Assembly (NCBI RefSeq): GCF_004331915.1
Contig: NZ_CP036528.1
Location: 820,567 to 884,566 of the forward strand
Length of the DNA stretch: 64,000 nt
Direction of reading: 5' to 3'
Source of the DNA: Ureibacillus thermophilus
GTDB taxonomy: Bacteria > Bacillota > Bacilli > Bacillales_A > Planococcaceae
The number at the start of each line of letters is the position of its first letter. Positions within the stretch are counted from its first letter, which is position 1. Shown here piece after piece: positions 1 through 64,000 of the stretch. The notes under the pieces were generated by a model, which saw only the letters and a program-made list of their open reading frames with translations, did no database searches and was not told the origin of the DNA. The position numbers and the translations under genes are program-made.

Positions 1-88
1 AAATATTAAGCAATCGAAAAAAGAATAAAAATCTTGTCCCTTAAGCATAAGAGTGCTTAGGGGGTTTATTATTTAAGGAGGAATGAAC

Positions 89-430
89 ATGCCGTTGAAA
101 AAAATCACGCCTGAACAATTAATGCAAAAAATGCAGCAAAAGGAGCAGGTTGTGATATTAGATGTCCGGGATAAAGAGAAATATAACAATTTTCATATTG
201 AAGGGGACAACATCCAATCATTGAATATTCATAAAAGCAAAATTTTCGAGATGGACAAAGAAATTTCTGCTTTGCCAAAGAGGACTGAAATCATCGTTAC
301 TTGCACAACCGGCAATTCAACAACTAAATGTGCAACAATTCTGTCCGAGCTGAATTATGATGTTGCAGTTTTAGAAGGGGGACTCACTGCTTGGAAGGAA
401 TTGAATATCGGAAAGAAAAATAATCTTTGA
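89..430 (+). CDS. Rhodanese-like domain protein
   Basis: Single-domain rhodanese (sulfurtransferase fold), about 113 residues. The family carries sulfane sulfur on an active-site cysteine; here that loop reads CTTGNST near residue 72, after a LDVRD motif typical of the family's N-terminal half and an EGG-LTAW C-terminal helix. No signal peptide or membrane segment is seen, so it is probably cytosolic. An ATG at 83 is in frame, but AAGGAGG at 75-81 leaves almost no spacing to it and 7 nt to the ATG at 89, so 89 is preferred. It stands alone, followed by an intergenic repeat array. The substrate cannot be told from sequence. Confidence 0.85.
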   Translation: MPLKKITPEQLMQKMQQKEQVVILDVRDKEKYNNFHIEGDNIQSLNIHKSKIFEMDKEISALPKRTEIIVTCTTGNSTTKCATILSELNYDVAVLEGGLTAWKELNIGKKNNL

Positions 431-655
431 ACGCAAAACTAGGGAACTGAGAGAATGGATAATCGCCAAAATCGTGAAGATAATCGCCGAAGTGGAGAGG
501 ATAATCGCCACTTCAAAGAAAATAATCGCCAAACGCAAAAAACTAGGTAATAGAGAATGCGGATAATCGCCAAAATCGTGAAGATAATCGCCGAAGTGGA
601 GAGGATAATCGCCACTTCAAAGAAAATAATCGCCAAGCGCAAAAAACTAGGTAAT
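431..655. repeat. 21-bp-period GATAATCGCC repeat array, copy 1
   Basis: Two ~103-bp units in tandem plus the start of a third. Each unit holds four copies of the core GATAATCGCC (or AATAATCGCC) exactly 21 bp apart, followed by a spacer of about 40 bp containing AAAAAACTAGGTAATAGAG. Within each unit GAAGTGG and CCACTTC can pair as a hairpin. A near-identical array is at 2976-3200. The 21-bp phase leaves all frames open, so short ORFs run through it on both strands; one hydrophilic frame, 455-550, starts with ATG and encodes DNRxxxE heptads. Coding is doubtful. Confidence 0.85.
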
Positions 656-689
656 AGAATACAAAGACTCAATCTCTCAACGTTAACCA

Positions 690-1319
690 TGGAATTTGGC
701 AAGTGTATGTATGCATTTTTAATTGCCATTTCATACATTTTCTACTTGCCAAAAACAACAATCAAGAGACTAAGAGTAATACGATTAAGCAAAAAAATTT
801 ATCCGATGAAGAACGCAACAGGTTAATGGCAGCAGTTGGGGGAAAGATTTTTCATTATGAATACAAAGCGGAAAAGGAAAAATTATTGCGGGTATGGGTG
901 GAACGTTATGAATACGGAAATTTAGTTGAACAGGCTGGAGACATCGGGGGAATCATTGAAAATGAAGAGGAGAAATTCTCGTTTATTTTCTAGAAAATCT
1001 TGAGTGGGAACACTATTATTTGCGTAGTGCAATTATCAATGAAACAGGTCATTCTATGTCGAGTAGCCCATATTTCCAAACCGGGTGAAACTTTAGAAGT
1101 GGGATCTTGGAGTTCGATTGTCAGTGATGAGGTTCCTCTGACAGAGGATGTAGTATTAGGGTATATGGGACTTTTTGAAGCACATGACGGGAGCTCGATA
1201 AGTGTCAAGTACTAGTCAATCACCTCCTCAAGAATTGGTTGAGGAGAATACACATATTCCTGTACTTTACCTCATTCGAGCTTCATTAACGGATGATACC
1301 GACTTGGACGTCGAGTAGG
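690..1319 (+). pseudogene. Decayed lipoprotein gene (paralogue of 13292-13930)
   Basis: Translations in different frames match the intact lipoprotein at 13292-13930 along most of its length: ERNRLMAAVG...LRVWVERYEYGNLVEQ (about 820-940), LEWEHYYLRSAIINETG (about 1000-1055), VPLTEDVVLGYMGLFE (about 1130-1185) and LYLIRASLTDD (about 1265-1300). These pieces lie in at least three frames with stops between them, so the gene is broken by several frameshifts. The signal peptide and lipobox region is no longer recognisable. It lies directly upstream of the zinc-ribbon/alpha-CTD-like gene, as its paralogue does. Function unknown. Confidence 0.85.
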
Positions 1320-1327
1320 AAGGTGGA

Positions 1328-1630
1328 ATGATGATGAAGCGTTCGGAAAAAACATTAAGAGTTTGTGAGAAGGGTCATCGATATTATAAAAGCAGTGATT
1401 GCAACACTTGTCCAACTTGTGAAGCAGAACGAAAACCAACAGAGGGTTTCTTAGCTGGATTTTCCGCCCCGGCAAGAAGAGCACTTGAAAGCCAGGGGAT
1501 TACAACTGTTGAAGAACTTTCGAAATATACGGAGAAAGAAATCATGTCCCTTCATGGCATTGGTAAAACTGCGCTTCAGAAAATGAAAGAGGCTTTAGAT
1601 GAAGCGGGATTAAGTTTTAGTAAGGAATAA
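1328..1630 (+). CDS. Zinc-ribbon plus RNA polymerase alpha-CTD-like (HhH) protein
   Basis: About 100 residues. The N-terminus has a zinc-ribbon-like cysteine/histidine set (CEKGHRYYK, then CNTCPTC, about residues 12-32). The rest resembles the C-terminal domain of RNA polymerase alpha: a helix-hairpin-helix fold with GITTVEELSKYTEKEI and HGIGKTALQKMKEAL. The natural guess is a DNA- or transcription-associated role, but nothing in the sequence proves it. Start: GGAAGGTGG precedes a run of ATG codons at 1328/1331/1334; any of these may be used. A broken lipoprotein gene ends 8 bp upstream. The same gene order recurs at 13.3-14.0 kb with the decay reversed, so the two genes probably formed a unit. 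Confidence 0.75.
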   Translation: MMMKRSEKTLRVCEKGHRYYKSSDCNTCPTCEAERKPTEGFLAGFSAPARRALESQGITTVEELSKYTEKEIMSLHGIGKTALQKMKEALDEAGLSFSKE

Positions 1631-1825
1631 TTTTAATCTTGAAATTTTTTCCATTTGCCGTCATAAATAAATGAACACTCTCTAATATCGGGCTTTATTT
1701 TAAAATTTTTTCTCATCGTCGACTTCACAAACAATTGCATTCGATGAAATTTCCGCATGGTCGTTACTTTTCATTATTATTGCTGCTTCAATTGCCTTCT
1801 AAAAATTCAGAAAGGGGAGTAAAAA

Positions 1826-2836
1826 ATGGATATCAATCAATTAAAAAAAGCAATTTCAAATCTCAGCGAGCAGGAAGTCAAAAGTTTATTACATTTGATT
1901 ATGATCCGTTCTGAACATATTGATGAAGACTTCCCAGAATTTATGCAATCCTTGAAAAACGCCCTTATTAAAAGAGAAAAAACACCGAACATGAAAAATC
2001 CTGAAACCATCCATATAGTATTCGGTGCTTCTGTAGCTGGTGGTTTGAAACACGCTTTTAAAGATCAACAAACAGAGGAAATCATCGAATTACCGGATTA
2101 TTTTGCAGAAGGTCCATTGAAACATTATCATACCCCAGAAGGTTTCGAACAACGTTATCAATGGTTTAAAGAAAACTATCAGTGGGATTCAGAGCATGCA
2201 GAGTGGTACAAATTTAAAATGAAAGAAGCGTTTGAAAAAATTCAATCGATTAACCCTGAGCAGCGAGTGGTGATTTGGACTTCTTCAAATGCAAGTGAAC
2301 AAACAGGATTACGCCTAGTGCTTTATTTATTGAAAGAAAAAACAAATGCGGTATATAAAATCAATACGTATGAAGCTTATCACAAACTTTACAAAGGAAA
2401 AGAAGAAGATTTTCCTCGCCATACGGGAGAATTAAATATTGAACAGTTGCGTGCATGTTACGAACTTGTAAAAATGAAGGAATTGACGGTAGAAATGCGC
2501 CATTCTTTAGCAAAAGAAGGGGAACAATTATTCACTTCCGAGTCGATTTTACGAACGTATAAAAATGGGCAAATTTTGAGCGCTGAAAGTAATCGGGATG
2601 ACGAGTTCATCATTGAAAAATTGAAGGAGATTCATGAAACGCAAGGGAAAAAGGATTTCCTTAAAGCTGCTAGATTAATTGGAGAAGTGCTTGGTCATAT
2701 GCAGCAGCATACGAGCTATGAATGGCTTGAGTACCGCTTGCGCCAATTAATTGCCGAAGGGAAAGTAGAATATCAAGGCGAACTCCGAGGCATGAGATAT
2801 TATGAGGTCAAATTGAAGGAAGCGCTTGTTGGTTAA
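1826..2836 (+). CDS. DUF1835 domain protein
   Basis: 336 residues, matching the DUF1835/DUF3658 protein family of Bacillales in length and architecture. After about 55 residues comes the DUF1835 core (IHIVFGASVAGGLKHAF, then LPDYFAEGPL). The middle WTSSNASEQTGLRLVLYLL stretch and a C-terminal DUF3658-like part (FLKAARLIGEVLGH, WLEYRLRQLIAEGKVEY, near residues 280-320) follow. No signal peptide or membrane segments. The biochemical function of the family is not known to me. The start follows GAAAGGGGAG with good spacing. Confidence 0.8.
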   Translation: MDINQLKKAISNLSEQEVKSLLHLIMIRSEHIDEDFPEFMQSLKNALIKREKTPNMKNPETIHIVFGASVAGGLKHAFKDQQTEEIIELPDYFAEGPLKHYHTPEGFEQRYQWFKENYQWDSEHAEWYKFKMKEAFEKIQSINPEQRVVIWTSSNASEQTGLRLVLYLLKEKTNAVYKINTYEAYHKLYKGKEEDFPRHTGELNIEQLRACYELVKMKELTVEMRHSLAKEGEQLFTSESILRTYKNGQILSAESNRDDEFIIEKLKEIHETQGKKDFLKAARLIGEVLGHMQQHTSYEWLEYRLRQLIAEGKVEYQGELRGMRYYEVKLKEALVG

Positions 2837-2950
2837 AGCATGTTTATACATGCTTTCAGCTTGTAGACAAAGTCCCAAACTAGGGGCCAAATCTACAGGC
2901 TTTTTTTGTATAATAGGGATAGAATTCTTGGTTAACGGGGGAAATTTAGG

Positions 2951-3070
2951 ATGTTATCGAAGCGTACTGACAATAAGGATAATCGCCAAAATCGTGAAGA
3001 TAATCGCCGAAGTGGAGAGGATAATCGCCACTTCAAAGAAAATAATCGCCAAGCGCAAAAAACTAGGTAA
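2951..3070 (+). other. Possible 39-residue ORF inside repeat array
   Basis: ATG at 2951 opens a frame that runs through the first repeat unit and ends at TAA 3070. It reads as hydrophilic heptads of the type DNRQNRE / DNRRSGE / DNRHFKE. The counterpart at 455-550 encodes nearly the same peptide. A TATAAT-like hexamer lies near 2909 and a purine-rich stretch precedes the ATG, but spacing is not convincing. The open frame may simply follow from the 21-bp period. Listed so that the conserved frame is on record. Confidence 0.2.
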
Positions 3071-3200
3071 TAGAGAATGCGGATAATCGCCAAAATTATG
3101 AAGATAATTGCCGAAGCTGGAAGGATAATCGCCACTTCAAAGAAAATAATCGCCAAGCGCAAAAAACTAGAGAATAGGAAGAGCGAATAATCGCCAAACA
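2976..3200. repeat. 21-bp-period GATAATCGCC repeat array, copy 2
   Basis: Two full ~103-bp units and part of a third, nearly identical to the array at 431-655. The second unit has drifted (one core is GATAATTGCC). The same internal GAAGTGG/CCACTTC hairpin is present in the first unit. It is followed at about 3221-3260 by a hairpin with an AAAGAGCGAAA/TTTCGCTCTTT stem that can serve as terminator for the minus-strand PFL gene. Confidence 0.85.
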
Positions 3201-3220
3201 CGAAAATACTGATAAAGCAA

Positions 3221-3260
3221 TAAAAAAGAGCGAAATCGAAAACTTTCGCTCTTTTCTTTA
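3221..3260 (-). terminator. Terminator of the ACT-PFL operon
   Basis: AAAAGAGCGAAA at about 3226-3237 pairs with TTTCGCTCTTTT at about 3243-3254 around a short loop. It is U-rich on the minus-strand transcript and lies just past the stop of the PFL gene. Confidence 0.7.
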
Positions 3261-4622
3261 TTAATTCCCCAACGCTTGCAATGGAGCTGGAATGCGGCCG
3301 CCGCGGCGAATGATTTTTTCGGAGCTGAATGGATTTACTCCTATTACTGGCGCTCGTCCTAAAAGTCCTCCGAATTCGACCATATCGCCTTCTTTTGCTC
3401 CTGGAACAGGGATGACACGTACAGCAGTCGTTTTCTTATTAATCATTCCAATGGCTGCCTCATCAGCAATCATGGCAGAGATGGTGCTGGCAGGTGCATC
3501 GCCAGTAATCGCAATCATATCAAGTCCAACTGAACATACGCAAGTCATTGCTTCCAATTTTGAAAGTGATAGTGCTCCTTCTTCAATCCCGCGGATCATG
3601 CCGTTATCTTCACTGACTGGGATGAAGGCGCCACTTAAACCGCCAACATAAGATGAAGCCATGGCCCCGCCCTTTTTCACCGCATCATTCATTAAGGCAA
3701 GGGCAGCAATAGTACCGTGAGTTCCAACCCGCTCAAGGCCGATTTCTTCAAGAATTTCAGCCACACTGTCGTTCATAGCATTTGTTGGAGCAAGGGATAA
3801 GTCCATAATGCCAAATGGAACACCTAAGCGTTTTGCCACTTCCCGGCCGATTAATTCCCCGGCACGTGTGATTTTAAATGCGGTTTTCTTTATAATTTCC
3901 GCTACTTCTCCTAAATCCGCATCTGGATAGCGTTTCAGTGCATTGAGCACCACTCCGGGACCGGAAACGCCGACATTGAGCACGGCTTCTCCTTCGCCAG
4001 AACCAAGGAAAGCGCCGGCCATAAAAGGATTATCTTCCACAGGATTGCAGAAGACAACAAGCTTTGCACAGCCAAGGCCGGATTTGTCTTTTGTCAGTTC
4101 GGCCGTTTCTTTAATGATTTCCCCTAATTGGCGAACCGCATCCATGTTGATTCCAGCTTTTGTGGTGCCGACAGAAATGGAAGCGCAAACCCGCTCAGTA
4201 GATGCCAAGGCTTCTGGAAGAGCCTCAAACAACACTTGGTCGCCTTTTGCGATGCCTTTGTGGACAAGGGCGGAAAATCCACCGATAAAATCAACACCAA
4301 GGGTAAACGCAGCCTGATCCAATGTTTTGGCAAGTTCCACTGCTTGTTCTTTTGTCGCATTGCCAAGAAGGTCGGCAATTGGCGTTATCGCAATCCTTTT
4401 ATTAATAATTGGAATACCGTATTCTTTTTCGACTTTTTCAGCAGTCGATTTTAAATCTTTCGCGTAATCGGTGATTTTATCATAGATTTTTTGCTTCATT
4501 TTATCGAAATCTGAATCCGCACAATCCCGGAGATTAATCCCCATTGTGACGGTGCGTATGTCCAAATTTTCAGTTCGAACCATTCGGATTGTTTCTAACA
4601 TTTCATGAATTTCAAAGTTCAT
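3261..4622 (-). CDS. PFL family protein (UPF0210/DUF711)
   Basis: About 453 residues, the usual size of the UPF0210/DUF711 (pyruvate-formate-lyase-like) family. Family features are the N-terminal [21 protein letters not shown], the glycine-rich [23 protein letters not shown] stretch near the middle, and the C-terminal [16 protein letters not shown]. The enzymatic role is not established. An upstream ATG (4640) overlaps the AAAGGA that best serves as ribosome binding site for the ATG at 4622, so 4622 is chosen. It follows the ACT-domain gene by 14 bp and shares its transcript, which is preceded by a glycine riboswitch; a link to glycine/serine or one-carbon metabolism is inferred. Confidence 0.85.
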
Positions 4623-52751: not shown

Positions 52752-53543
52752 ATGAAAATAGGTTGCATTCAAATGAATGTCGGGTTTGGGAAGGTAGAAG
52801 AAAACTTCCAGAGGGCAGAACAGTTGATTCGGGAAGCAGCAAGCCAAGGAGCAGAAATGGTGGTGTTGCCTGAGATGTGGAATACCGGCTATGCCCTTGA
52901 AAAGTTGGAAGAATTGGCGGATGAAAATGGAGAGCGCACTAAAGCGTTCTTAAAAACTCTTGCCCGCGAGCTAGGCATACATATCATTGGAGGCTCTGTG
53001 GCAACAAAGCAAAACGGCAAATTTTATAACACGATGTATGTGGTGAATCGCGATGGAGAATTAATAAGTGAATACAGCAAAGTACATTTATTTAGATTGA
53101 TGGATGAAGAAAAGTATTTAGAAGCAGGAGACTCCATGAACTGCTTTGAATTGGGCGGTCTTCCGGCAGCGGCTGTGATTTGCTATGACATCCGCTTCCC
53201 TGAATGGCTTCGCGCCCATGCATTGGCAGGAGCAAAAGTATTGTTTGTATCAGCCCAATGGCCAACCCCAAGAATTGACCATTGGAAAATTTTATTGCAA
53301 GCACGGGCTATTGAAAATCAATGTTTTGTGATTGCGGTGAACCGGATTTCCCGCAAACCGGAAAACTTTAATGGCCAGTCAATGGTGATAGGACCTTGGG
53401 GCGAAGTGTTTTGGACAGGGGCGCAAGATGAGGAATTGGCAGTCATTGATGTTGATTTTTCAATTGTGGATGAAGTGCGCACACGAATTCCCGTATATGA
53501 CGACCGCCGTCCAGAATTGTATGGAAAAGTGGTAGATTTCTAA
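52752..53543 (+). CDS. Carbon-nitrogen hydrolase (nitrilase family, MtnU-like)
   Basis: About 263 residues. Catalytic triad Glu-Lys-Cys: Glu in VVLPEMWNTGY (~44), Lys in YSKVHLF (~109), Cys in VICYDIRFPEW (~145). Probably an omega-amidase-like enzyme acting on small amides. In B. subtilis mtnU lies next to mtnE, the same divergent arrangement as here, so a role in methionine salvage is plausible. AGGGGG positions ATG 52752. Confidence 0.88.
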   Translation: MKIGCIQMNVGFGKVEENFQRAEQLIREAASQGAEMVVLPEMWNTGYALEKLEELADENGERTKAFLKTLARELGIHIIGGSVATKQNGKFYNTMYVVNRDGELISEYSKVHLFRLMDEEKYLEAGDSMNCFELGGLPAAAVICYDIRFPEWLRAHALAGAKVLFVSAQWPTPRIDHWKILLQARAIENQCFVIAVNRISRKPENFNGQSMVIGPWGEVFWTGAQDEELAVIDVDFSIVDEVRTRIPVYDDRRPELYGKVVDF

Positions 53544-53566
53544 TTATGGTTATAAAAATTTGGAGA

Positions 53567-53720
53567 TAATCATATAACCTGTCGATATTGTCACAAAACC
53601 AAGGGATATGTTCACAAAACTGGGTGTTATGGCCACAAAATTTGGGGATAAAATTATAACCTATCAATATTGTCACAAATCCAAGTGTTATGTTCACAAA
53701 ATCTGGGGATAAAAATATGT
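53567..53720 (-). repeat. 21-bp-period TTTTGTG repeat array, copy 2
   Basis: Read on the minus strand, about seven units of 21-22 bp: TTTTGTGAACATAAC, TTTGTGACAATATTG, TTTTGTGGCCATAAC, TTTTGTGAACATATC, TTTTGTGACAATATCGACAG, with short joins. The last unit is identical to one in the array between copZ and copA. Located between two plus-strand genes. Also listed as the gene-free stretch before the RNA methyltransferase. Confidence 0.75.
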
Positions 53721-53772
53721 CCATCACCCCAAATGACAAAATGCATGATAATATACTTTTGAGGTGAACAAA

Positions 53773-55146
53773 TTGAATCTACCCCAAACCTTTCAAGACA
53801 AAATGAAATGCTTGTTGCAGGAAGAGTATGATGCGTTTATCCGAAGCTATGAGGAAGAAAAGAACCAAGGTTTGCGCATCAATACGTTAAAAATTTCAAT
53901 AGAAGATTTTTTAAAAATCAATCCTTTTACAATCGAAAAAATTCCATGGGTGAAGGAAGGATATTTTTATCCCAACAACGAACGGCCTGGGAAACATCCT
54001 TATCATGATGCAGGTTTGTATTATATTCAAGAACCGAGTGCGATGGCGGTAGGGGAGTTGGTCGACCCGAAGCCGGGGGAAACAATTCTCGATTTATGTG
54101 CAGCACCGGGCGGAAAAACGACGCACCTTGCTTCTAAAATGAATGGACAAGGACTTTTGGTTTCTAATGAAATCCATCCGCAGCGGGCGAAAATTTTATC
54201 CCAAAACGTGGAGCGGATGGGCATCAAAAACGCTATTGTAACCAATGAAACACCCGAGCGATTGGCTGCGCATTTTCCAAGCTTTTTTGACCGAATTTTA
54301 GTGGATGCTCCGTGTTCTGGGGAAGGCATGTTTCGGAAAGATGAGGAAGCCCGCTTGCATTGGAGTCCGGAAAACGTGGCCCTTTGTGCAAGCCGGCAAG
54401 ATGAAATTCTCGAATATGCCCAAAGCATGTTAAAGCCAGGGGGAAGACTGGTTTATTCCACTTGCACTTTTTCGCCGGAAGAAAACGAAGGAACAATCAG
54501 CCGCTTCCTTGAAAAATATCCAAACTTTGAGATTGAACAAGTGGAAGTGTATGAAGGTTTCAGCCCAGGAAGAGCCAATTGGGTAAAGGGGGCTGCACCA
54601 AATATTGAGCAGACAATTCGCATTTGGCCCCATCGTGTGAAAGGGGAAGGCCACTACATTGCGGTGCTGAAAAAGAATAATGGGGATGAACTGCCGCGGT
54701 TGAAATATGCAAAAACGAAACTCGATCCAAAAATGCTGAAGGCTTATCAAGAATTTGCTGGCGAAACGTTAAATAGCATGCCTTCTGGATTTTTTATTGC
54801 CTTCAACGATCAGTTCTATGTTTTGCCTGAGGAAGCGCCGACATTGGAAAAATTAAAAGTGCTTCGTCCAGGTTTGCATTTGGGAACGTTCAAAAAGAAC
54901 CGCTTTGAACCTTCCCATGCCCTGGCATTGGCTTTACGCAAGGAAGAAGCGAAGAGAGTATTCGATTTATCGGCAGATTCAAGTGAAATCATTTCTTATT
55001 TGAAAGGAGAAGTTTTGTCGGTAAACGGCGTCAAAGGATGGCATTTAATCACCGTGGACGGCTATTCCATCGGCTGGGGAAAACTTGCCGGAAATATGAT
55101 GAAAAACCATTATCCAAAAGGCTTGCGCTGGATGGGGAATGATTAG
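53773..55146 (+). CDS. NOL1/NOP2/Sun (RsmF-type) RNA m5C methyltransferase
   Basis: About 457 residues. SAM-binding LDLCAAPGGKTTHLAS (~105-120), the two catalytic cysteines in DAPCSGEGMF (~182) and YSTCTFSPEENE (~230). A C-terminal PUA-like part follows (from ~300), typical of bacterial RsmF/YebU-type 16S rRNA methyltransferases. Target position not deducible. GAGGTG fits TTG 53773; the GTG at 53764 overlaps it. Confidence 0.9.
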   Translation: MNLPQTFQDKMKCLLQEEYDAFIRSYEEEKNQGLRINTLKISIEDFLKINPFTIEKIPWVKEGYFYPNNERPGKHPYHDAGLYYIQEPSAMAVGELVDPKPGETILDLCAAPGGKTTHLASKMNGQGLLVSNEIHPQRAKILSQNVERMGIKNAIVTNETPERLAAHFPSFFDRILVDAPCSGEGMFRKDEEARLHWSPENVALCASRQDEILEYAQSMLKPGGRLVYSTCTFSPEENEGTISRFLEKYPNFEIEQVEVYEGFSPGRANWVKGAAPNIEQTIRIWPHRVKGEGHYIAVLKKNNGDELPRLKYAKTKLDPKMLKAYQEFAGETLNSMPSGFFIAFNDQFYVLPEEAPTLEKLKVLRPGLHLGTFKKNRFEPSHALALALRKEEAKRVFDLSADSSEIISYLKGEVLSVNGVKGWHLITVDGYSIGWGKLAGNMMKNHYPKGLRWMGND

Positions 55147-55336: not shown

Positions 55337-56869
55337 ATGAGTAAAGTATTGGGATTGGATATTGGCATATCATCCGTAGGTTGGGGAATTATTGATACCG
55401 AGACAATGGAAATTATTGATGCTGGTGTAAGATTATTTGAGGAAGCGACGAGAAATGCTAACGAGGAAAGAAGAGGGTTTAGAGGATCAAGAAGATTAAA
55501 AAGAAGAAGAAATCATCGTTTAGAAAGGGTAAAGAATTTATTTGAAGAGTACGGTATTCCAACAAATTCAATTGGAACTGGAAACCCATATGAAATTAGA
55601 TGTAAAGCGTTAAAAGAAAAAGTATCATTGGAAGAATTAGCAATTGGCCTTTATCACATTGTGAAAAGGAGAGGTACTGTTTTAGATGCACCTTTGGAAG
55701 AAGAAACAACTGCTGGAGAGTTATCTACAAAAGAGCAATTGAAAAGGAACAGCAAAGAACTGGAAACGAAATATGTCTGTGAAATACAAATGGAAAGATT
55801 ACAAAAAGGATTAGTTCGTTCCCATGAAAATCGTTTTCGTACAGAAGATTATGTTAAGGAAGCGAAAGCAATTTTGAATAGACAAGCCCAATTCTATCAA
55901 GAAATCAATGATGAATTTATTGAGAAATATATTGATCTAGTTCAAAGAAGAAGGGCATATTATGAAGGACCAGGATCAGAAAAATCTCCTACGATATATG
56001 GAAGATTTTTTATTAAAAATGGGGAACTTCAAGAAATGTCAATGATTGAAAAGATGAGAGGAAAATGTTCGTATTTCCCTGAAGAGCCTCGTATTGCAAA
56101 AATGTCTTTCACTGCCGAATTGTTTGATTTATTAAATGGTGACTTAAATAAACTGAGAGTAAATGGTGAATATTTGACAGAGGAAGATAAAGTTTATATT
56201 GTCGAGGAAATTGTAAAAAAGGGTCAAAAGGTAACTATTGATAGAATCTTAAAATATAAAGGATTACCAAAAGATACCTATGTTTCTGGTTATAGAGTCG
56301 ATCTTAAAAAAAATCAGCCATCCTTTACAGAATTTAAGGGATACAAAAGAATTTTAAAAGCTGTAAAAGAAAATGATTTGCCAAAAGAAATATTAGATAA
56401 CGTTGAACTGTTAGATGAAATCAGTGAAATTCTTACGGCAGAGAAATCCTATAAAAGAAGAGAACATGATATAAAAGAAGCGTTGGAGAAATATTCTACT
56501 TTTGATGAGCGTACAAAGAATAACATCATCAATGCCTTAAAAGAAATCACAGAATTTAAAGGTTATCATTCATTATCTAAAAGAGCAATCCAGCTCATCT
56601 TACCGGATTTGTGGAAAACAAACAAAAATCAAATGGAATTGTTTAGCGAACTAGGTTTAGAAGGAAAGAGATATAAAAATATATCTAACGGAAAGAATAT
56701 TAAGTTTGATGATTCTGCGATTTTAAGCACAGTGGCAAAAAGGGCCCATCGGGAAGCAATTAAAATTGTCAATAAAGTAAGAGAAGTCTATGGTGAATTA
56801 GATTCGATTGTTATTGAAACAGCAAGAGAGAAAAATAGTGAAGAAGCCCAACAAAGATATGGGAGATGA
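55337..56869 (+). pseudogene. cas9: Truncated Cas9 (SaCas9-like), N-terminal part
   Basis: 510 residues of a type II Cas9 most like the small Cas9 of Staphylococcus aureus (LGLDIGISSVGWGIID, EE.RRGFRGSRRLKRRRNHR, LKEKVSLEELA, NRFRTEDYVKEAK, YYEGPGS.KSP, CSYFPEEPRIAK). RuvC-I Asp 8 and the Arg-rich bridge helix (~45-65) are present, as is RuvC-II Glu ~494 in IVIETAREKNS. The frame ends 16 residues later at TGA; HNH, RuvC-III and PAM-interacting domains are absent. The sequence past the break is an IS605-type element. Non-functional as a nuclease. Start: AAGAAGGGGATTCT then ATG 55337. Confidence 0.92.
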
Positions 56870-56876
56870 ATCGCCT

Positions 56877-58265
56877 TAACTATATTTTACTGAATCTATA
56901 TTATTTTCAGTAAAATTAAGTAAAATATAGTTAGATGGGAGGTGAAAAAATGTATTTTTGTATCAAGCAACAGCTAAATGGTTTGACGAAAGAAGAATAC
57001 TTGACTCTTAGAGAACTGTGCCATATTGCCAAAAACATATACAACGTCGGATTATACAATGTCAGACAATACTATTTTGAACACAAGGAATTTCTTAATT
57101 ATGAGAAAAACTATCATCTTGCAAAAACGAACGAAAACTATAAGCTGTTGAACAGCAACATGGCACAGCAAATTTTAAAAAAGGTTAATGAAGCTTTTAA
57201 ATCTTTCTTTGGCTTAGTAAAACTAGCCAAACAAGGCAAATATGACTACAAGGCTATCAGTATCCCAAAATATCTTAAAAAAGATGGCTTTCATTCACTA
57301 ATCATTGGTCAAATTCGTATAGACGGCAACAAATTCACGATACCGTATTCGAATCTGTATAAAAAGACTCATAAGCCTATCAAGATAACGATTCCGCCTG
57401 TGTTGCTTGACAAAAAGATTAAGCAGATTGAAATTATTCCTAAACATCATGCCAGGTTCTTTGAGATTCAGTACAAATATGAAATGCCTGAAGATCAAAG
57501 AAAATTAAATGACCAAAAAGCACTGGCGATTGATTTAGGATTAAATAATCTCGCCACTTGTGTCACATCAGACGGCAAATCGTTCATCATTGATGGGCGG
57601 AGATTAAAAAGTATTAATCAATGGTTTAACAAAGAGAATGCCAGACTTCAAAGTATTAAAGATAAGCAAAAAATCAAAGATACAACTCGTAAACAAGCTT
57701 TGCTTGCTATGAATCGCAATAATAAAGTTAATGATTATATCAACAAGACTTGTCGTTACATCATAAACTACTGTATTGAAAATCAAATTGGCAAACTTGT
57801 CATTGGCTATGCTGAAACATTACAGCGCAATATGAATCTAGGAAAAAAGACAAATCAAAACTTTGTCAATATTCCTCTCGGTAATATAAAAGAAAAACTA
57901 GAGTATCTTTGTAAATTTTACGGCATTAAATTCTTCAAACAGGAAGAGTCATATACGTCTAAAGCCAGCTTTTTTGACGGCGATGAGATTCCTGAATATA
58001 ATGCCGACAATCCAAAAGAATATAAGTTCAGTGGCAAACGTATTAAGCGAGGTTTGTATCGAACAAAGTCCGGCAAACTAATCAATGCTGATGTAAATGG
58101 TGCATTAAACATTTTAAAGAAAAGTAAAGCTGTAGACCTGAGTGTCTTATGCTCTAGCGGCGAAGTGGACACGCCTCAAAGAATAAGGATTGCTTAAAGC
58201 AGTCAAACTTCTTTGGAAGCCCCCACTTCAAATTTTCGCTAGAAAATTAAGTGGGGGTAGTTCAC
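56877..58265 (+). mobile_element. IS200/IS605-type element (tnpB only)
   Basis: About 1.39 kb. Left end: an exact 13-bp inverted repeat AACTATATTTTAC / GTAAAATATAGTT (56880-56932) enclosing a second, competing one. Right end: a 9-bp stem CCCCCACTT/AAGTGGGGG with further pairing (58220-58257) and GTAGTTCAC. Such subterminal hairpins mark IS605 ends; no tnpA is present (IS1341-like). No target duplication is expected. Outer limits are uncertain by a few bases. Flanks come from two unrelated genes. Confidence 0.85.
56950..58197 (+). CDS. tnpB: TnpB, RNA-guided nuclease of IS605-type element
   Basis: About 415 residues. The RuvC residues are present: Asp in AIDLGLNNLA (~193), Glu in VIGYAETLQ (~285), Asp in NADVNGALNIL (~378). 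Between the last two, the usual CxxC zinc finger is not seen; the form YTSKASFFDGD...SGKRIKRGLYRTKSGKLINA belongs to a zinc-less subgroup. In studied relatives TnpB cuts DNA next to a transposon-specific motif, guided by an RNA from the right end. ATG 56950 follows GGGAGGTG; 56935 is also in frame. Confidence 0.9.
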   Translation: MYFCIKQQLNGLTKEEYLTLRELCHIAKNIYNVGLYNVRQYYFEHKEFLNYEKNYHLAKTNENYKLLNSNMAQQILKKVNEAFKSFFGLVKLAKQGKYDYKAISIPKYLKKDGFHSLIIGQIRIDGNKFTIPYSNLYKKTHKPIKITIPPVLLDKKIKQIEIIPKHHARFFEIQYKYEMPEDQRKLNDQKALAIDLGLNNLATCVTSDGKSFIIDGRRLKSINQWFNKENARLQSIKDKQKIKDTTRKQALLAMNRNNKVNDYINKTCRYIINYCIENQIGKLVIGYAETLQRNMNLGKKTNQNFVNIPLGNIKEKLEYLCKFYGIKFFKQEESYTSKASFFDGDEIPEYNADNPKEYKFSGKRIKRGLYRTKSGKLINADVNGALNILKKSKAVDLSVLCSSGEVDTPQRIRIA

Positions 58266-58285
58266 ACGGAAGAGCGTACGAAAAG
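58200..58285 (+). ncRNA. Likely TnpB guide RNA (omega-RNA) 3' part
   Basis: The right-end hairpin (58220-58257) directly follows tnpB, as in omega-RNA scaffolds. The sequence just past the element, from about 58266 (ACGGAAGAGCGTACG...), would be the guide and lies in the binding-protein gene fragment. Inferred from the known architecture; 5' limit unknown. Confidence 0.5.
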
Positions 58286-58796
58286 CTTCCTTTATCCAAA
58301 AGAATTTTTGGGGCTCAGCAGTGTAGGATTTGTGTTGAAAGCCGATAAAGCGGATATTCATAGTTTGAGCGATTTTGCTTCTGCAGGATATACCCTTGCG
58401 CCAATCGCTGCAAGCAGTGCCCAATATACACTGGTTGATGAATATAATAAAGCCAATCCAAACAACCAAGTGAAACTGAAAGCAGGGGATGAGTTTAACT
58501 TGGATGTGGTGCAGTGGGTGAATGAAGGACGGGTCGATGGAGGAATCATCATCGAAGCTATGTACAATGCGCAAGTGGCTGATGAAAATGGGCCATACCA
58601 CCAATTCAAAGACGATCTTGTCTACAATGAGTTTGCCGTAATCAAAACATGGCCGCTTTTCAACAAGAAAAACATAGAACTTGCTGCAGCTTATGACGAA
58701 GCGATGCAGGAAATTAAAAAGACGGACAAATTGAATAAATTAATGGAAAAATATTACGGAAAAGATTTGTTTCCGCTGCTTGAAGCAAGTCAATGA
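58266..58796 (+). pseudogene. Amino-acid ABC transporter substrate-binding protein, C-terminal part
   Basis: About 176 residues corresponding to the C-terminal lobe and hinge of a family-3 solute-binding protein (SFLYPKEFLGLSSVGFVLKADK, LSDFASAGYTLAPIAASSAQYTLVDEY, GRVDGGIIIEAMYN). The signal peptide and first lobe are missing; the gene begins directly after the IS605-type right end. Together with the cut cas9 this shows a deletion or rearrangement at the element. No permease or ATPase genes follow. Confidence 0.88.
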
Positions 58797-58917: not shown

Positions 58918-59457
58918 ATGAAAGAGGCTTTATTGATTGTGGATATGAGCAATGACTTTGTGGCCGATGACGGCAGTTTAACGGCGGGGAAACCTGCTCA
59001 AGACATTGTTCCTTATATTGTGGAAAAAGCCAATGAGTTTTTAGAGAAGGACCAGATTGTGGTTTTTGCGATGGATGCCCATCAAGAAAACGATCCGCAT
59101 TTTGACTTATGGCCGCCACACAATGTGGTGGGTACAAAAGGGCAAGAGCTTTATGGGGATTTGTACACATGGTATGAAGCCCATAAAGAGCATCCAAATG
59201 TGTTGATGCAGCCGAAAGAAAATTACAATGCCTTCTATAACACTGGGCTTGCGGACAAGCTGCGTTCCCGTGGTGTGGAGAAAGTTCATGTGTGCGGCGT
59301 ATGCACCGACATTTGCGACTTTTTAACGGTTGCAGGAGCCGATGCAGAAGGGTTCAAAACGGCCGTTCATAAGCGGGGCGTTGCGACATTTACCGGCCAA
59401 GGCGATCTTTTCATCGAGCATATGAAACGATGCTTCTTTACGGAAGTGGTGGAGTAA
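58918..59457 (+). CDS. Isochorismatase-like cysteine hydrolase (nicotinamidase-like)
   Basis: 179 residues. Catalytic triad: Asp 9 in LLIVDMSNDF, Lys in the QPKENYNAF loop (~100), Cys in CGVCTDICDFLT (~125). The metal site (D..H, AMDAHQENDPHFDLWPPH) fits a nicotinamidase-type enzyme, which would deamidate nicotinamide for NAD recycling. Exact substrate unproven. Preceded by GAAGGTGTCGGT; followed by a hairpin of the genome's repeat family. Confidence 0.9.
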   Translation: MKEALLIVDMSNDFVADDGSLTAGKPAQDIVPYIVEKANEFLEKDQIVVFAMDAHQENDPHFDLWPPHNVVGTKGQELYGDLYTWYEAHKEHPNVLMQPKENYNAFYNTGLADKLRSRGVEKVHVCGVCTDICDFLTVAGADAEGFKTAVHKRGVATFTGQGDLFIEHMKRCFFTEVVE

Positions 59458-59541: not shown

Positions 59542-60190
59542 AAAAAAATCGTCCTTTTTTATAGAATGAAATTGACCAAAAAACATTCTAAAGAAAGGAC
59601 GATTTTTTATGAATAATCAAATGACTATTCAAGAAAATTATAACACGCAATTAGAAATGACTCTAGAGGGTATTCAAAAAATAGAGGTTCAAAAGAACAA
59701 GAAACGCAAAAAGCTAGTTTTCCAACCTTATTGCAATCGTCAAGTCATGAGCATTTTAGATATCGAAATGTATATTCCTGAAAATCATGTCGCCCGTTTA
59801 GTGGATGAAATGGTGGAATCGATTCCGGATGAAGTGTTGTATACTCATTATGTTGGTGGGGGTCGTGCACCCTATCACCCTAAAATGTTATTGAAAGTGA
59901 TTTTATATGCGTACACTCAAAAAGTTTATTCAAGTCGGAAAATGGCGCAAATGGTGAAAGAAAATCTTCCGATGATGTGGTTGGCGGGATTGCAAACCCC
60001 TGACCATCGCACAATAAATGATTTTCGTAGTGTTCGTATGTCAAACATGATGGATTCTGTATTTGAACAATTTGTCCTTCAACTAGTAGAACAAGGATTT
60101 ATCGACCTCGACCATATTTTTGTGGATGGTACGAAAATAGAAGCGAATGCCAACAAATATACGTTTGTATGGCGAAAATCCGTGCGTGAG
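59542..60190 (+). mobile_element. IS1182-family element, 5' fragment
   Basis: Left part of an IS1182-type insertion sequence. It starts with a long hairpin (59542-59609) that contains the ribosome binding site of the transposase; the gene runs to about 60185, where it fuses to an unrelated minus-strand transposase. The right end of the element is missing, so no terminal repeats or target duplication can be assigned. Confidence 0.8.
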
Positions 60191-60199
60191 GACATCTGA
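59609..60199 (+). pseudogene. IS1182-family transposase, N-terminal part
   Basis: 196 residues of about 450-500 expected. DUF772-type N-terminus (YIPENHVARLVDEMVE, RAPYHPKMLLKVILYAYTQKVYSSRKMAQ) and the start of the DDE domain with the first Asp in DHIFVDGTKIEANANKYTFVWRKS. Then the frame runs into minus-strand transposase DNA and stops. Inactive. Confidence 0.9.
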
Positions 60200-60683
60200 A
60201 CTTGAGCTGGTCCTTATCAGCTCCCCAATAAGTCATTTCATAACCCATGGAACAACGCGGAGTTCCATTGGAAGAAATCCTTTCAGGAGGCTCTTTTTCG
60301 TTGCACAAATTGAGCGGGATAATGGCTTGTGCTCCAATGTTTTTGGCTGATTCATAGTTTTTTAGTTGGTCATATCCGCCATCCATGATCAGAAATTCAA
60401 TTTTGGATTTGGTACGCTCTGCCACTTGCTCGATTAATTCTGGTGCGACTTCTCCATCGTTCACATGGGCAGGGGTTATTTTTATGGCCATTGGCAGTTC
60501 GCTTGCGGTATCGACTGAAAGATGCATCTTATAGCCAAACCAGGTAATTTTATTGCCGAAGGAATCATATTTTGCGCCCCAATTGGCATTACCCGTTTGT
60601 TCACTACGCTTTTTGGGCTGTTTCTTTTCATAGGCATCAATGGCGGCACTGTCGATGGCCTGGTGGCTGCCGTCAATTATTCC
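60186..60683 (-). pseudogene. DDE transposase remnant, middle part
   Basis: Minus-strand translation reads IDGSHQAIDSAAIDAYEKK, then NANWGAKYDSFGNKITWFGYKMHL, DTASELPMAIKITPAHVNDGE, FLIMDGGYDQLKNY and FRCPHA: the DDE core of an IS4-type transposase with its first and second Asp. The frame is cut at 60186 by the junction with IS1182 and continues, after a 619-bp insertion, at 61303. Part of the same decayed gene. Confidence 0.8.
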
Positions 60684-62254: not shown

Positions 62255-62436
62255 ATGGACTTTTTAGACAAGCCCTTTTATTTTTCCGGATGTATAGTTG
62301 GGATTTTCGTTTAAACGGATTATTATGTATCGTTGAGGTTTAAAGGAAAGAATATCGGTTAATGATTTTATTAAATCATAAAGTTAATGAAATTTATATA
62401 TCATTAATACGGATTTTATAATAGGAGGTGATAGGG

Positions 62437-63204
62437 GTGACGTTCATGAGCATAACTGTATATGAACAAACACAAAAGGAGATTGAATGTGCTTATTTGG
62501 AAAAAGATAAAGCAAAGATTGAAAAAGAAACGTTGAATGTATTGAATTTTGTGATTATCATGTTCATCAACAAGTTTGAAGAGCGTATTAATAAGACTAT
62601 TTTCGATCCAGATGATTTTCAATTGAATGAAGAATATTTGTTGTCTGAAGAAAATCATCAAGAGTTAAAACAGTGGGTTAATCGGCTATCATTGATGGAA
62701 TTTCCTATAAATGATGAGGAATTTGGAAAACTAATAATTGAACTAGAGCAATGGTATTACAAAATTGGTGGTAAAAATTTGAAAATTTATTATAATGAAA
62801 ATTATTTGCTGACACCGAAAGAGGCAGCAAATATGCTTAGCGTATCTACCGTAACAATTCATAAGTACATGAAACAGGGACTCGAGAACTTGGAGACACG
62901 TTCCCATCGAAAAATTCCGAAACACGCGGTTCTGTTATGGAAAGATTCGAAATATTGTATTTTGATGCAAAGGATTTATCATGAGAAAAAATTGCGAAAT
63001 CAAACGCCGGAAGACCGTATTAAAGAGGCTAAACATGAATTGCTAGACTTGCAATTAAAGTACGGTGTGGACACTCTTGAACAGGCGTGGAAGCTAGTGG
63101 ATGAAGAGAAGATGGACATCTCTGAATATTATGAATGGGAAGCTCTAGAAGATGAACTACGGGAGTTAGAGGGAAAACTCAAAGGGAAGGGAATCCGTGA
63201 GTAA
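62437..63204 (+). CDS. HTH (excisionase-like) domain protein
   Basis: About 255 residues. In the middle (~120-165) LLTPKEAANMLSVSTVTIHKYMKQGLENLETRSHRKIPKHAVLLW is a MerR/excisionase-like helix-turn-helix with wing. The N-terminal ~100 residues are acidic and helical, the C-terminal part a charged coiled coil. Such proteins often act as DNA-binding antitoxins or regulators. Start: AGGAGGTGAT leads to GTG 62437 or ATG 62446; both are possible. Its last codons overlap the start of the next gene by 8 bp. Confidence 0.7.
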   Translation: MTFMSITVYEQTQKEIECAYLEKDKAKIEKETLNVLNFVIIMFINKFEERINKTIFDPDDFQLNEEYLLSEENHQELKQWVNRLSLMEFPINDEEFGKLIIELEQWYYKIGGKNLKIYYNENYLLTPKEAANMLSVSTVTIHKYMKQGLENLETRSHRKIPKHAVLLWKDSKYCILMQRIYHEKKLRNQTPEDRIKEAKHELLDLQLKYGVDTLEQAWKLVDEEKMDISEYYEWEALEDELRELEGKLKGKGIRE

Positions 63205-63680
63205 AACACATAGAGATGTAAATGAACTGCTGAAATCGGCAGACATTCATCAAATGATGAATAAGTATGGTCATCTTCTTGAGTTTTATCCAAAAATTGC
63301 TGAAAGGGATTCAATTTTTCCGAAATACAAAAGAACATCCAATTTATTATCTGTTTTATTTCCACTGTGTTCATGGCATTACAGGATTGTATGCTATGGA
63401 GCGATATAATGAAGAAGGCTGTGTCTGGAAGTATTCCTATGAATGGAAAATTATTTATCCGAAAAAAGGAAAACATTTAAAACATATATCGGCATGGGGA
63501 AATGAACTTCATGAAGATGAAGAAACAAGGAAAGAATTCATTGTTGCATTTACTCCACATCATCATCACATTCCGGGATACCGAAGAGCGAGAAAAGAAA
63601 ATTGGGATGTTTGGACATTGGAAGAGACATTTGAATTTGTTGCTTATTACATTCAGTCTGGAAAAGAATATAAACCTTGA
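63197..63680 (+). pseudogene. Frameshifted partner of the HTH protein
   Basis: GTG/ATG-type start at 63197 opens MSKTHRDVNELLKSADIHQMMNKYGHLLEFYPKIAERD..., which runs out near 63360. A frame shifted by +1 continues with YAMERYNEEGCVWKYSYEWKII...HHHHIPGYRRARKENWDVWTLEETFEFVAYYI to 63680. The joined product would be about 160 residues. The family is not recognised with confidence; a histidine-rich motif next to an Arg-rich stretch is conserved-looking. Overlap with the HTH gene suggests a two-gene unit, perhaps toxin-antitoxin-like. Confidence 0.55.
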
Positions 63681-63870: not shown

Positions 63871-64000
63871 ATGAGGGTAACGGAACTGAATTACACGAAC
63901 TTTAGCCCCGAAAAATTGCATCGCCTTCTTCCGTATCGTTCGATTATGTGCATTGATATGCGCTGCTTTTATGCCAGCTGCATGGCGATGCTTCACAATT
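63871..64000 (+). CDS. Y-family DNA polymerase (UvrX/YqjW-like), partial
   Basis: The first 43 residues, cut by the window end. YRSIMCIDMRCFYASCMAML matches the catalytic start of Y-family lesion-bypass polymerases (DxxxFYAS), in the UvrX/YqjW style of Bacillus with an N-terminal extension. GGGGTGG precedes the ATG. The upstream SOS box supports damage-inducible translesion synthesis. Linkage to mobile DNA fits UvrX-type genes, which are often on phages or islands. Confidence 0.85.
   Translation, partial: MRVTELNYTNFSPEKLHRLLPYRSIMCIDMRCFYASCMAMLHN

Follow-up and report, generated by a model that had tools for sequence, protein, structure and literature searches.

Here, we report that a 64,000-nucleotide stretch of the Ureibacillus thermophilus genome (positions 820,567-884,566 of the single contig NZ_CP036528.1; the whole stretch analyzed is called the window hereafter) holds the N-terminal half of an SaCas9-like cas9 gene, a tnpB-only element of the IS605 type and, truncated to its 3' half, a family-3 solute-binding-protein (SBP) gene, one directly after the other. 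We consider this arrangement to be, most probably, the in-place deletion scar of a lost type II-A clustered regularly interspaced short palindromic repeats (CRISPR)-Cas9 locus, produced with one element in the SBP gene and an illegitimate joint to cas9. The three parts were named in an original prediction made on this DNA, and family and sequence matches confirm each of them. Relative to Ureibacillus thermosphaericus DSM 10633 (NZ_JAAXPW010000002.1; G022) and a metagenome-assembled genome named Lysinibacillus sp. AS09scLD_39 (G009), the genome of the window (G000; one contig of 3,017,325 bases with a completeness score of 100%) lacks the cas9 C-terminal half, the tracrRNA, cas1, cas2, csn2 and the array, and its cas9 is fused to a damaged left end of the element.

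An SaCas9-like Cas9 is encoded as far as residue ~508 by the cas9 reading frame (55337-56869), whose final two residues (G-R) and stop derive from the TnpB element and not from cas9. Residues 3-507 align with SaCas9 chains (E about 1e-105), and model positions 2-527 of 1070 of TIGR01865 cas_Csn1 are covered. Read from the sequence, the stop lies 16 residues past the Glu of an IVIE motif, which we take to be RuvC-II. The N-terminal parts of the SaCas9-like type II-A protein, i.e., the RuvC start, the bridge helix and REC, are present in the remnant (the bridge-helix model scores 22.2 bits, below its cut-off of 26.3), and the HNH, RuvC-III, WED and PI domains are found in the G022 Cas9 and are missing from G000. 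The remnant should therefore yield no working Cas9, because HNH, RuvC-III, the domain that reads the protospacer-adjacent motif, the tracrRNA and the array are all gone.

A search with the Cas9 half against 151 genomes, its own included, gave matches in eight; full-length close frames were found in two other same-genus genomes, G022 (87%) and G009 (83%), and the remaining five reached only 28-45% identity. Between the same anchors as in the window, the order in G022 is rsmF-cas9-tracr-cas1-cas2-csn2-array-umuC, with rsmF directly 5' of cas9 and 37 repeats in the array by pattern search. The tracrRNA is assigned to the lost part because its anti-repeat sits between cas9 and cas1 in both relatives (score 51 in G022 and 45 in G009, 0 of 200 shuffles as high); no prominent anti-repeat was found 5' of cas9 in either, where a score of 20 was matched by 13-23% of shuffles. 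The csn2 product is named by PADLOC only (Csn2, E 6.6e-119) and carries no Pfam or NCBIfam name. The cas1 of G009 is whole (299 aa, TIGR03639). In the present G022 assembly a frameshift divides the gene in two (L013, 7053-7923 of the reverse complement), which may mean that spacer uptake is dead or may be a sequencing error. A 21-nt minisatellite of ~1 kb with several open frames lies between the array and umuC of G022 (L013:7143-8200).

The missing parts were searched for in the whole G000 genome. The cas9 C-half gave 0 matches at E<=1 (a search run without a control), and the 4.1-kb cas9C-cas1-cas2-csn2 DNA of G009 gave only one 36-bp match (E 8.7e-4); as a positive control, the same DNA matched G022 at 77% over positions 2-4088 of 4129. 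The type II cas1, cas2 and csn2, the tracrRNA and the array, present in G009 and G022, were not found in G000, and the G022 CRISPR repeat, with <=3 mismatches allowed, occurs 0 times in G000 vs 37 times in G022 and once in G009. The RuvC_III family search had no match in any control genome and is not counted as evidence. On the other side of the element, the N-half of the SBP gene of G021, the nearest genome among those compared and the carrier of an intact SBP gene, found five matches in G000, all of them other genes (paralogues), the best at 59%. The original prediction had held that neither partner gene has its other half nearby and that the rest of cas9, cas1, cas2, the array and the front of the SBP gene were lost at the TnpB element; this stands for the genome as a whole, SBP paralogues aside, and the tracrRNA and csn2 are to be added to the loss. 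The search it had proposed for missing halves and orphan arrays elsewhere returned no second half and no matching type II repeats in G000, and an inversion carrying the cas9 half to another place, which it had named as a refuting outcome, was not seen in the genome-wide searches with the cas9 C-half and the 4.1-kb DNA. The sole Cas1 found in G000 is type I-C, and since a type I-C locus remains (L075, C1:1590001-1610000; cas3, cas5c, cas8c, cas7, cas4, cas1 and 107 repeats), the strain lost one CRISPR system and not all.

How the loss came about is best read from the two ends of the element. The element is present at five places in G000, i.e., the window copy, two others of full length (98% and 97%), one with an internal deletion and one 3' piece; the window copy is 97.7% identical over 1406 bp to the complete copy in L045. 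The right end AGTTCAC is found in five of five copies, and TTTAT stands directly 5' of all three other copies that keep a left end. PMC12908284 describes TTTAT as the target motif of the ISDra2 and ISYmu1 TnpB. In the intact SBP gene of G021 the right-end joint reads TTTAT|ACGGAAGAG, in codons TTT TAT|ACG GAA GAG. Complete left ends have 59 nt ahead of the shared ATCGCC, of which the window copy retains the last 10 only, and the 49-nt loss stops within the 3' arm of the left-end hairpin (stem AAG|TGGGAG; single-stranded DNA fold z -4.6). In the cas9 genes of G022 and G009, neither strand carries TTTAT in the ~60 nt to either side of the joint. Because the right end is canonical, the left end is short by 49 nt and cas9 offers no TTTAT there, we conclude that the element inserted into the SBP gene and that its joint to cas9 is illegitimate and came second. 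An insertion into cas9 itself, accompanied by a deletion next to the right end of the element, was rejected, since that end is complete and abuts a canonical target sequence within the SBP gene.

The original prediction had instead supposed that cas9 and the SBP gene each carried a copy of the element, and that recombination by homology between the two copies dropped everything between them. Similar full copies do exist, one of them ~36 kb downstream of the window copy in the same orientation, and recombination between copies is possible; however, the left end that faces cas9 is cut inside its hairpin, neither cas9 relative has the target motif there, and the left end would have had to disappear in an additional, later step. 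Two copies are also unneeded, since a single element, in the SBP gene, plus a single break in cas9 suffices. We regard the two-copy history as very unlikely, and a simple test of the element ends here takes the place of a tempting story of two recombining transposon copies.

The element has the traits of IS1341-like tnpB-only elements, i.e., a fixed 5' target motif and a hairpin at each end, with the outer left end absent from the window copy. No tnpA was found beside tnpB, and Y1 transposase matches in G000 were obtained only at 2104784 and 2851228, neither tied to the element. Two other full-length tnpB copies in G000 encode 420 and 415 aa. By eye, the motifs AIDLG and NADVNGALN are seen in the window copy and AIDLG in one other copy, the middle Glu not being assigned. 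TldR proteins are TnpB-derived RNA-guided repressors that have lost the RuvC catalytic residues and keep a fixed association with a host gene; the flanks vary among the copies of the present element, and the window TnpB has no PDB relative by sequence. The right-end hairpins are presumed to be the 3' scaffold of an omega RNA, because the TnpB literature describes such scaffolds, and the guide would be read from 58266 onward. A megablast search gave no match to plasmid copies of the element. The inner left-end hairpin loop (window 56880-56935) is inverted in the copies at 913669 and 510033 compared with the window copy and that at 445524 (L045, L046, L048), and two further short rows in the element search are inverted matches inside left ends.

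The SBP half is 97% identical to the intact 296-aa frame in G021. Among five regions fetched on account of SBP matches (L039-L043), the isochorismatase-family gene, for which the name pncA is our assumption, follows the SBP gene in all five (adjacent in three, after two intervening genes in L040 and L043), and umuC follows in four. The G021 order is rsmF-(PBP-like gene)-SBP-isochorismatase-family gene-five other genes-umuC, so that rsmF stands 5' of the SBP side there, and no cas genes were found in the 40 kb fetched. The window shows the SBP half, the isochorismatase-family gene, IS1182 and other remnants, and then the right-anchor gene, presumably umuC from its sequence, which has an 89% amino acid match to the gene directly after the G022 array. 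This synteny bears on an assembly error, which the original prediction had named as a way for its reading to fail and which would have glued two true places through the repeated TnpB element. A 1.4-kb element with near-identical copies is indeed a usual source of false joins, but the synteny places both sides as expected, the truncated left end at cas9 is seen in none of the three other copies with a left end, and searches of a one-contig genome scored as complete turned up neither of the missing halves. The conserved gene order to the left and right and the uniqueness of the joint make an assembly error unlikely, and we give a false join of this kind next to no weight.

Briefly, the deletion in place would have run as follows. 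The tnpB-only element inserted once, as its ends show, into the SBP gene next to an ordinary TTTAT motif; this gene would then have lain downstream of the CRISPR array on the same chromosome. A break in the left-end hairpin would subsequently have been joined to a break in cas9 with a homology of about 1 nt at most. Lost in this way would be 49 nt of the element, the front of the SBP gene and, of the CRISPR locus, the array, the tracrRNA, cas1, cas2, csn2 and the 3' half of cas9; in the simplest form this would be a single deletion. The joint itself is plain in the sequence, and its cause may be an instability of the hairpin that turned the left end into a break point. The element may thus have helped to cause the break, by virtue of its hairpin-prone end, or may merely mark the site.

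Several observations weigh against a deletion in place. The original prediction had expected a related genome with cas9-cas1-cas2-array followed by the full SBP gene; the first part is found in G022, but no fetched genome has the array and then this SBP gene, the predicted ancestor. The G022 array adjoins umuC, no SBP or pncA match was found in the 48 kb compared, and the only SBP match in G022 is a 59% paralogue on another contig. G021 has the SBP gene without cas genes, together with the PBP-like gene (named by eye) between rsmF and SBP, which yields short paralogous matches or none in G000, G022 and G009; rsmF was not found in L039-L043. The identity to G021 is 98% left of about 51.4 kb, 83-88% to the right and 94% in the SBP gene, and this shift along the region means that recombination with other strains has touched the stretch. 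At window ~51400 the identity falls from 98% to about 86%, like a recombination edge.

These points lend themselves to the main rival explanation, a replacement by incoming DNA, in which a CRISPR-less donor carrying SBP::TnpB-pncA would have recombined by homology at pncA/umuC and illegitimately at the cas9/left-end joint, so that the cas genes were swapped out. The 94% of the SBP half against its 83-88% neighbours, the absence of array and this SBP gene together from every genome seen, and the illegitimate joint on the left only are all in its favour; yet the donor must already have carried the element, pncA directly to the right of the SBP gene is at an ordinary 88%, and the SBP gene may just be well conserved (dN 0.010). 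We hold the replacement to be unlikely, and a deletion in place is preferred.

The loss seems recent, judged from the sequences, because both halves are free of stops and the pairwise comparisons show strong purifying selection (dN/dS 0.076/1.66 for the cas9 half of G000 vs G022 and 0.010/0.325 for the SBP half vs G021). We give no date, because dS between the cas9 sequences approaches saturation. Private codon changes in the cas9 half (nonsynonymous:synonymous) number 20:62 in G000, 10:69 in G022 and 23:58 in G009; relaxed selection on the remnant was not accepted, the Fisher test of G000 vs G022 being suggestive and not significant (p 0.07).

Two further causes of a break were considered and set aside. 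A cut in cas9 by TnpB with the guide of another copy was evaluated with the 16-nt guides of the four other copies against the G022 and G009 cas loci (the lost G000 sequence itself being gone), requiring an exact TTTAT and <=6 mismatches; four heavily mismatched sites were obtained, the nearest ~190 nt into the lost part, and they are taken as chance. An autoimmune loss through the type I-C array was rejected too: outside the array copies in L055, the matches listed for the 106 spacers are only 14-18 nt long, and among them the one in the window is 14 nt, at 3777-3790, far from the cas9 locus.

Table 1. Coordinates of the features discussed, in positions of the window.
Feature	Position	Strand	Remarks
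rsmF (16S rRNA methyltransferase), left anchor	53764-55146	+	PF01189, PF17125
cas9 N-terminal half (RuvC start, bridge helix, REC, RuvC-II region)	55337-56859	+	Without HNH, RuvC-III, WED and PI domains
Joint of cas9 and left-truncated TnpB element	56859-56860		About 1 nt (T) attributable to either side; compared with G009 and G022 cas9 and L045
IS605-type tnpB-only element	56860-58265	+	First 49 nt of left end gone; right end complete (..AGTTCAC)
tnpB, 420 aa	56935-58197	+	Open throughout; PF01385, PF07282; NF040570 guided_TnpB, 205.6 bits
Right-end hairpins, presumed omega RNA 3' scaffold	58165-58265	+	Fold of 58165-58258, -39.6 kcal/mol, without shuffle control
3' half of family-3 SBP gene, 176 codons + stop	58266-58796	+	PF00497 positions 66-132 of 132
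Isochorismatase-family gene (nicotinamidase-like; pncA here)	58918-59457	+	PF00857
umuC-like (Y-family polymerase) gene start, right anchor	63871-64000	+	Continues beyond window

Some features of the neighbourhood are recorded here. Short degenerate repeats of the TGTCACAAAACC.. type lie between the nitrilase gene and rsmF (window 53537-53764), and similar repeats are seen in G022 near rsmF and in the trp region. Sigma-factor-like and DUF4179-like genes (by eye) precede rsmF in G021 and G022; the window has neither of them between nitrilase and rsmF. At window 59609-60527, two IS1182 transposase pieces stand face to face (the N-terminal part on the + strand, the middle part on the - strand), as if an inversion had passed through the element. 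The region 62428-63680 holds a 258-aa excisionase-like DNA-binding protein, below the NCBIfam cut-off and with a weak PADLOC mad1 match. Short overlapping frames come next, of which the one searched (63267-63677) had no NCBIfam match.

That a TnpB element erased a CRISPR locus had been thought striking in view of the kinship of TnpB with Cas9. The kinship stands only in a weakened, indirect form, as PMC10951260 presents TnpB as the likely progenitor of Cas12 and IscB as that of Cas9. The link of TnpB with CRISPR loss would matter more widely only if the remaining TnpB guards the deletion by cutting SBP alleles that are intact, an idea suggested by the flank sequence that we consider very unlikely. 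In the SBP gene of G021, which is intact, the guide that the SBP flank would supply finds TTTAT and 20 of 21 nt (mismatch at guide position 15); incoming DNA able to restore the region would carry this site, be cut and then be repaired from the deleted chromosome. If so, the element would be a homing drive that favours a haplotype lacking Cas9 immunity, though it is itself probably immobile, having lost its left end. Going by titles and abstract openings, no listed paper describes a deleted Cas9 locus fused to a TnpB element, most subscription journals being outside this coverage. The window nonetheless offers a base-exact example of the natural loss of a Cas9 locus; the locus is preserved whole in one species of the genus, and the uninterrupted insertion site in another.

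Insertion-sequence-assisted loss of CRISPR is already documented, and the Ureibacillus case is a clear, well-resolved and fairly ordinary further example. The CRISPR system of Staphylococcus epidermidis RP62a is reportedly type III-A. In that strain, PMC3784566 reports loss of CRISPR-Cas by insertion-sequence-assisted deletion among escapers, with IS431 in 9, IS256 in 3 and Tn554 in 1 of 16 different deletion mutants; there, as here, the loci are deleted up to a mobile element, whereas the Ureibacillus event, set against that account, is natural, concerns a type II-A locus and an IS605-type tnpB element, and has its joint inside the end hairpin. Haloquadratum walsbyi HBSQ001, as described in PMC3119063, keeps a residual CRISPR locus after natural loss, with a miniature inverted-repeat transposable element in the remnant; the loss was likewise recognized by comparing relatives, and the remnant likewise holds a mobile element, but H. 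walsbyi keeps a few spacers without cas genes and Ureibacillus half of cas9 without an array. Homing, or gene drive, by TnpB is described for IS200/IS605 elements in PMC11870625; with the homing TnpB of that description, the window element shares an intact tnpB frame, a complete right end and a flank usable as a guide against the TTTAT empty site, and it differs in that its left end is lost and the allele it may guard is a deletion and not only an insertion.

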